From assembly GCA_947629745.1 (NCBI GenBank), contig CANREZ010000002.1:64210-128209 (forward strand): 64,000 nt of DNA. The letters are read 5' to 3'. Shown piece after piece: positions 31,671 to 49,429 of this stretch. This DNA comes from an uncultured Clostridia bacterium (GTDB taxonomy: Bacteria > Bacillota > Clostridia > Christensenellales > UBA1242). A program made the position numbers and the translations under genes. The notes below the pieces were generated by a model that saw only the letters and a program-made list of their open reading frames with translations, was not told where the DNA came from and searched no databases. Within the stretch, counting starts at the first letter, position 1, and every line of letters starts with the position of its first letter.

Positions 31671-31769
31671 GCAGGGGTGTGCTTGCACACCGAAGGCCGG
31701 AGCGAGTACGTTCGAATCGATTGCGAGAGCAATCACAGGGGGACCTGTCCGCCATTAGCGCCACAAAAA
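31671..31769. other. Structured element 3' of tRNA-Thr with inverted T-arm/acceptor copy and two-hairpin insert
   Basis: gttcgaatc (31710-31718) + 30-nt insert gattgcGAGAgcaatc-acaggGGGAcctgt + ccgccattagc (31749-31759), matching tRNA-Thr in inverse orientation. Confidence 0.75.
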
Positions 31770-31845
31770 TGGAGCTAATGGCGGGATTCGAACCCGCGAC
31801 CTCATCCTTACCAAGGATGTGCGCTACCTACTGCGCCACATTAGC
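31770..31845 (-). tRNA. tRNA-Thr(GGT), CCA encoded
   Basis: gctaatgtggcgcagtaggtagcgcacatccttggtaaggatgaggtcgcgggttcgaatcccgccattagctcca. Confidence 0.95.
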
Positions 31846-48737: not shown

Positions 48738-48841
48738 ATATAACTACAAGATAGAATGTGACATATCTCAAAATTATTAGTAAAAATGTGAGATATAAAT
48801 TCCATGCAGGAAAACACATTTAATAAATAAACAAAAAAAAA

Positions 48842-48868
48842 GAAGCAAGCAATTGCTTCTTTTTTTTG
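48842..48868 (+). terminator. Rho-independent terminator
   Basis: gaagcaagcaattgcttctttttttt. Confidence 0.85.
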
Positions 48869-48986: not shown

Positions 48987-49172
48987 CGTCCAGAGGCCGT
49001 GTTAAGAAAGAGCGTGGTTCTCGGGATGTTTGTGTGATAACACAAATCCGGGGACCCGAGCGTCCCAAACCGTCTCGAAGAGACTGGTTGGGGGTTCGCT
49101 GCAAGATATTGCAGGGTGTGCGGATAGCACACAGACTCCCTCTGGGATAAGTGAAGTTTTTTGATAAAAAAA
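48987..49172. other. Structured element 3' of tRNA-Arg with inverted T-arm/acceptor copy, two-hairpin insert, and 10-bp repeat of the tRNA end at its far edge
   Basis: ggttgggggttcg (49086-49098) + 36-nt insert + actccctctgg (49135-49145); cgtccagagg at 48987-48996 and 49178-49187. Confidence 0.8.
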
Positions 49173-49249
49173 TGGTGCGTCCAGAGGGAGTCGAACCCCC
49201 AACCTTTGGTTCCGTAGACCAACGCTCTATCCAATTGAGCTATGAACGC
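49173..49249 (-). tRNA. tRNA-Arg(ACG), CCA encoded
   Basis: gcgttcatagctcaattggatagagcgttggtctacggaaccaaaggttgggggttcgactccctctggacgcacca. Confidence 0.95.
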
Positions 49250-49429
49250 ACGCAAATATTTATTAACTATTAGACTATATACCAACATGACCTAATTGTC
49301 AAGTAAATATTTTTCATAACGCAAAAATTATTCAGCAATTGTGCTAGCCCTAACTAAATTTCGCGTCAAAACTATTGACTAGGGAAATTGTTTTGCTTAA
49401 AATTAAAGAAAGGTAAAAGGGTGAGCATA

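Follow-up and report, generated by a model that had tools for sequence, protein, structure and literature searches.

Several described systems resemble the units reported here in part. Miniature inverted-repeat transposable elements (MITEs) and repetitive extragenic palindromic (REP)-type repeats are likewise short, non-coding, hairpin-forming and present in many copies. Integron attC cassettes have a folded single-strand site and occur as cassette-like tandem units, and the internal guide sequence of a group I intron pairs, in its order, with the 5′ and 3′ sides of a junction. Tyrosine-integrase genomic islands at tRNA genes (Islander; PMC4383910) are alike in inserting within a gene, regenerating the target, leaving a displaced fragment and forming tandem units; in IS200/IS605 elements a guide beside a hairpin base-pairs with the cleavage site, the guide of IS608 being a tetranucleotide (PMC5934647); and the bridge RNA of IS110/IS1111 (PMC11208160) is a structured, non-coding RNA-like module with a target-matching guide. 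Here we analyzed a 64,000-nucleotide (nt) stretch of contig CANREZ010000002.1 from an uncultured Clostridia bacterium (the window), in which the tRNA-Arg(ACG) gene is followed by a structured unit that carries an antisense copy of part of that gene. The recurrence of this layout at other genes suggests a kind of very small mobile element that has not been described before.

In the sense of the target gene, the general layout reads A-a/b-B′-[rc(b)..rc(a)]-core-b-B, where the slash marks the junction and rc the reverse complement. B′ is part of the intact gene, and the second b-B is a displaced copy that in most cases includes the terminator of the gene. The antisense guide bridges the start of this copy, which extends to the gene end or terminator, so that one intact gene is kept. 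Units are ~155 to 240 bp in size, contain no open reading frame (ORF) and can stand in tandem; their cores sort into several families. On the 5′ side of tRNA-Arg, at least seven genomes of the family carry a mirror form composed of the leader with tRNA nt 1-43, a core, AACCTTTGGTTCC and the intact tRNA.

The window unit (Table 1) fits this guide-plus-displaced-end architecture, with a junction-spanning antisense copy, a core and a gene-end direct repeat shortened to 10 nt. Its guide halves together are the exact reverse complement of one unbroken 24-nt stretch of tRNA-Arg (T-arm plus acceptor), interrupted in the T-loop. An original prediction, made from the letters alone, had listed the split inverted T-arm/acceptor copy, the two perfect hairpins, the GTCTC-GAA-GAGAC hairpin and the far 10-nt repeat, and all of these are present in the sequence. 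The direct repeat is weak by itself, with a chance of occurrence of roughly 0.005 by our own estimate, yet it is predicted by the general layout. Folding gave z = -4.9 for the plus strand of the insert and z = -9.5 for the minus strand through tRNA-Arg, whose minimum free energy (MFE) structure joins the T-arm/acceptor to the antisense copy and does not form the cloverleaf. No terminator was found between tRNA-Arg and position 48834. A 125-amino-acid ORF overlying the unit was judged spurious.

Table 1. Features of the tRNA-Arg(ACG) unit and of a second tRNA target in the window
Feature	Position	Strand	Basis
tRNA-Arg(ACG), intact target gene	49173..49249	-	ARAGORN and Rfam RF00005
Junction a/b in the T-loop of tRNA-Arg(ACG)	around 49191/49192	-	
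Promoter-like TTGACA-17-TATAGT of tRNA-Arg(ACG)	49274..49302	-	11/12 match; ~1.9 such sites per region expected by chance
Trailer TTTTTTTATCAAAAAACTTCACTTATC, T-rich, after CACCA; no stem-loop terminator	49146..49172	-	sequence
Guide half 1, CCAGAGGGAGTC, reverse complement of the 3′ T-stem/acceptor side (b)	49134..49145	-	exact 12-nt inverted repeat to 49181-49192
Split hairpin 1, GTGTGC-GGATA-GCACAC, perfect	49116..49132	-	sequence; fold
Split hairpin 2, CTGCAA-GATA-TTGCAG, perfect	49099..49114	-	sequence; fold
Guide half 2, CGAACCCCCAACC, reverse complement of the T-loop/5′ T-stem (a)	49086..49098	-	exact 13-nt inverted repeat to 49192-49204
Structured core with hairpins 49072-49084 (GTCTC-GAA-GAGAC) and 49020-49060	48997..49085	-	folding
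Displaced fragment CCTCTGGACG (also given as CGTCCAGAGG), 10-nt direct repeat of the tRNA 3′ end, 49178-49187	48987..48996	-	
Bidirectional terminator-like hairpin, first one downstream of tRNA-Arg	48834..48867	.	
tRNA-Thr(GGT), second such target in the window	31770..31845	-	tRNA call
Split antisense copy of tRNA-Thr: GCTAATGGCGG - ACAGG/CCTGT hairpin - GATTGC/GCAATC hairpin - GATTCGAAC	31710..31759	-	

We compared guides with junctions at 22 loci of one core family, termed E. At 16 of these the guide matched its own junction across a/b by at least 10 nt, compared to 0 of 408 swapped pairs, in which the longest match was 8. Of the six misses, four reflect a tandem or remnant copy picked by the script, and two are flagellin sites with a mismatch. 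Verified tRNA junctions include those of tRNA-Leu, Lys, Glu and Arg, and contiguous guides mark verified coding-gene junctions at the 3′ ends of enolase (eno), phosphoglycerate kinase (pgk), flagellin, rpsI and a phage gene, the names of coding targets being our reading of the sequences; the junctions fall in T-, anticodon- and D-arms and in gene 3′ ends. The pgk gene is hit at two positions, with junctions that differ between L251 and L179 and guides that track them. Similarly, the guide co-varies with the tRNA, as in genome G014, where the tRNA reads ACAGAAGGT and the guide ACCTTCTGT. At the phage gene (L330, a prophage contig from IMG/VR), the 3′ end carries four tandem 220-bp units, each with the guide GATCTGGTC.

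The frequency of such copies at tRNAs, assessed against non-cognate pairings, is not accounted for by chance. In the window's own genome (G000), 7 of 42 tRNAs have an antisense self-copy of at least 10 nt within 300 nt downstream (eight with tRNA-Tyr, whose copy is split 8+8), compared to 7 of 464 non-cognate tRNA/flank pairs; the corresponding counts in two relatives are 6/72 and 6/536. A split copy with exactly two hairpins in the gap was also found at tRNA-Thr(GGT), tRNA-Tyr (two tandem units) and tRNA-Gln(CTG) of the window genome, so that tRNA-Arg is not the sole case. The same arrangement occurs at tRNA-Leu(CAA) of a sister genome in the same genus (G001) and at tRNA-Ser of a genome from another genus (G022), where the displaced copy AATCCTGTCTTCTCCGCCA begins exactly at the junction. 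With tRNA-Arg, the total is six tRNAs from three genomes; long repeats and tandem copies accompany some of them. Two further loci of the window genome were noted. The final unit of the tRNA-Tyr array (contig C10, L091/L081) closes with a 23-nt antisense copy of the anticodon arm, not the T-arm, and on contig C15 (L045, L057) tRNA-Ile(GAT) has a 5′-side unit beside tRNA-Ala, with two pieces of antisense T-arm and a broken 5′ copy ahead of the tRNA.

E- and D-type cores are dispersed families common to different targets, whereas guide and repeat are site-specific. The D core (60-65 nt) is 98% identical at tRNA-Arg and tRNA-Gly of G012, where each copy has a separate gene-end repeat and a separate guide (GGGGTCGAAC and GGGGCTCGAAC), and it also makes an array of 155-bp period at tRNA-Glu. 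In the congeners G042 and G043, tRNA-Arg is empty on both sides. For 40 of 43 cores the nearest neighbour lies in the same genome, not at the same target elsewhere, which in part reflects tandem copies. An E core nested in a D core was observed in G012 (L444, L448) downstream of tRNA-Gly(TCC)/tRNA-Arg(TCT).

For the E family, a covariance model built from tRNA-Arg units detected 46, 14 and 10 copies in three relatives. The pattern TCGTC..TCCTCTYCCC..GGGGNCCC derived from these copies gave at least 120 matching stretches in GTDB, largely from Clostridia, and 63 in IMG/VR; chance is expected to account for some of the scattered matches. Across 66 diverse aligned cores, covariation was 0.504, compared to 0.186 when shuffled and ∼0.1 when slid, with 83% paired. 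At pair 9:31 on the E-bar strand (complementary to TCGTC..GGGG), G-T was found in 100, A-T in 36 and G-C in 5 of 151 sequences, which indicates that the strand complementary to the pattern is the folding, better-pairing one. This strand also bears conserved, non-Watson-Crick GAGGA/GACGA tandem purine motifs.

We further searched for enzymes and known RNAs that could account for the units. The reverse transcriptase (RT) family RVT_1 was absent from G000, G012, G014 and G021; the Y1 transposase (PF01797) was absent from G000, G012 and G014 and from most E-rich genomes; IS110 DEDD/Transposase_20 was absent from G000 and all 24 family relatives; and a TnpB-type nuclease (PF07282) was found in 0 of 40 genomes. 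A single PF00589 integrase gene is present in G000, located elsewhere in the genome, and none was detectable in G023, which has units. Proteins that recur beside cores are mainly phage structural genes, with no transposase among them, and a search for far direct repeats around an autonomous element returned only MITE-like matches. In Rfam, only the tRNA and unrelated leaders were matched; the E core is absent from that database, and no group I or II intron was found. RT template jumping at transcript ends was considered and rejected: E-rich genomes contain no RVT_1, and the tRNA-Leu(TAG) repeat passes beyond the terminator.

These results set the units apart from the systems named above. Unlike tRNA-gene islands, they are inserts of <200 bp without an ORF or integrase, with a junction-crossing antisense guide and many unrelated targets per core. 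Compared to IS200/IS605 elements, they have a guide of 9-25 nt that covers both sides and is rewritten per site, a long gene-end duplication and, in G000, G012 and G014, no Y1 enzyme. The IS110 transposase is absent from E-rich genomes, and the guide here fits one strand contiguously. In contrast to integron cassettes, no GTTRRRY-type site was seen, and what the cassette contains is the end of the target gene itself. The tRNA units lack the terminal inverted repeats and short target duplication by which a MITE is recognized, restore the target and carry a guide, and their ∼105-nt core, often past a terminator, has no group I match. No account of such units was found in the open literature exclusive of preprints, whether searched by concept or by literal motif; absence from this literature and from Rfam leaves novelty unproven.

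Broad support was obtained for the original prediction of a tRNA-targeting mobile element end or folded attachment site: the layout recurs, gene fragments are displaced, units stand in tandem, some relatives have empty sites, and different tRNAs share a core. The prediction needs amendment in that targets extend to the 3′ ends of protein genes and that no integrase, RT, IS110 or TnpB was found in the units. We give about even odds to the window unit being one small non-coding insertion that restores its target. Because a strong intrinsic terminator, judged by eye, separates the tRNA from the antisense copy in ∼11 of 15 3′-side tRNA cases, co-transcription of gene and guide is unlikely there, the window locus being exceptional. 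Together with the absence of RT, IS110, TnpB and, mostly, Y1, and of PF00589 from G023, this favors a unit that probably acts as folded single-stranded DNA (ssDNA) served by host enzymes. The guide would pair with a and b and hold the junction, and in units of the window type a four-way junction centred on a/b would form from a, b and the two hairpins. Strand exchange or repair at a/b could then insert or remove the guide-core plus gene end, the enzyme being a host function or an unrecognized one, and fold-back copying during repair may be one route to a fresh guide copy at each site, a step that ties the model to template switching (below). More generally, we suggest tentatively, at somewhat less than even odds, that ORF-free mobile elements of Clostridia, some Bacteroidota and phages enter genes without breaking them, duplicate the gene end and write a junction-matched guide by means of host enzymes and a folded core only.

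Several observations weigh against this reading. No partner emerged when the RT, Y1, IS110, TnpB and integrase families were compared with copy number. The counts of G-T versus A-C pairs leave RNA and ssDNA unseparated, most E copies (∼85%) have no detectable local guide, and the gain of a guide at a new site has no explanation in the model. Moreover, the window core has no homologue among 40 relatives and no significant match to core model R2 (≤4 bits), so that its candidacy as an E member was unsupported; with model R1 the element scored 11.6 bits, at the wrong place. The family of the window unit was therefore assigned by architecture, not by core.

Among the rival explanations, one dispenses with an element. 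At tRNA ends rich in hairpins, template switching during replication and quasipalindrome correction could give rise to antisense copies, short repeats and hairpins alike and keep them free of mismatches; template switching is known to generate and maintain hairpins (PMC8794818). It is consistent with inverted copies that adjoin their source, with perfect stems, with the pgk guides that follow changed junctions (L251 versus L179) and with the lack of an enzyme family. However, it leaves unexplained why two tRNAs with different guides share a 65-nt D core at 98% identity, why E families reach 39-46 copies, why core ends are precise (TCGTC.., ..GACGA) and why the GAGGA/GACGA motifs are conserved, and we consider this account unlikely. 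The units might instead be relics of tyrosine-integrase elements, the displaced fragment being an att remnant after a larger island collapsed. Islands at tRNA genes are marked by a regenerated target with a displaced fragment (PMC4383910), and the sites of the junctions (T-, anticodon- and D-arms and gene 3′ ends) fit such an origin, but tandem units of ∼155-240 bp with conserved folded cores, each with an antisense guide, and the PF00589 distribution (one gene in G000, none in G023) make this origin improbable.

A cis-acting RNA would account for other features: the antisense copy and core might regulate or splice the transcript, the guide acting as a group-I-like internal guide sequence for a/b. 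The E-bar strand is gene-sense in the verified coding-gene cases inspected, the guide order rc(b)rc(a) equals P10+P1, and the window has no intervening terminator and an MFE structure that prefers pairing with the tRNA. Nevertheless, terminators stand between tRNA and guide in most 3′-side cases, the core of the 5′-side tRNA-Arg units runs antisense to the gene, Rfam gave neither a group I/II match nor another one, and the gene copy is intact without splicing; we would give an RNA of this kind little chance. The same terminators speak in general against the original prediction's alternative of an RNA that pairs with read-through pre-tRNA, although tRNA-Arg in the window, which lacks one, is an exception. 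Finally, the window case by itself could have arisen coincidentally, as a decayed antisense tRNA or tRNA duplication with no relation to the E and D units; its core is unique and unscored, and its repeat is just 10 nt, but the recurrence of the two-hairpin split at six tRNAs of three genomes, in some cases together with tandem copies and long repeats, renders coincidence very improbable.

If a guide-carrying, target-restoring insertion is the correct reading, the genomes of bacteria and phages contain non-coding elements that change target by means of a guide copied from each new site and leave the entered gene restored. Guided insertion would then have a further route, one involving no known transposase, RT or CRISPR-like protein. 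This would account for "tRNA fragments" and odd gene-end repeats and would offer a compact targeting module. Even under template switching, the loci show local guides being made and kept in step with their target.

E cores also occur in other settings. In the window genome, four R2 matches lie elsewhere, beside tRNA-Asn, tRNA-Leu(GAG) and another tRNA. E cores directly follow the CCA of tRNA-Leu(GAG) and of another tRNA (L080; near C1:152348 and C1:159625); both have a terminator-like insert in stem 1, and a local guide was not found at them. The structure at tRNA-Leu(GAG) is not a terminator target, as one reading had it, but an E core whose stem contains that insert. In G014 (L144, L145, L140, L141, L143) and G021 (L160, L161), E cores lie beside terminator hairpins within ∼270-bp repeats that end in CAGACTG-type sequences (CAGACTGCC..AAAAC / GTTTTT..CAGTCTG), likely a MITE that captured an E core. 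In Christensenella intestinihominis (L214), an L20-leader match and the start of an infC-like ORF flank an E core; this core may lie in a 5′ untranslated region.
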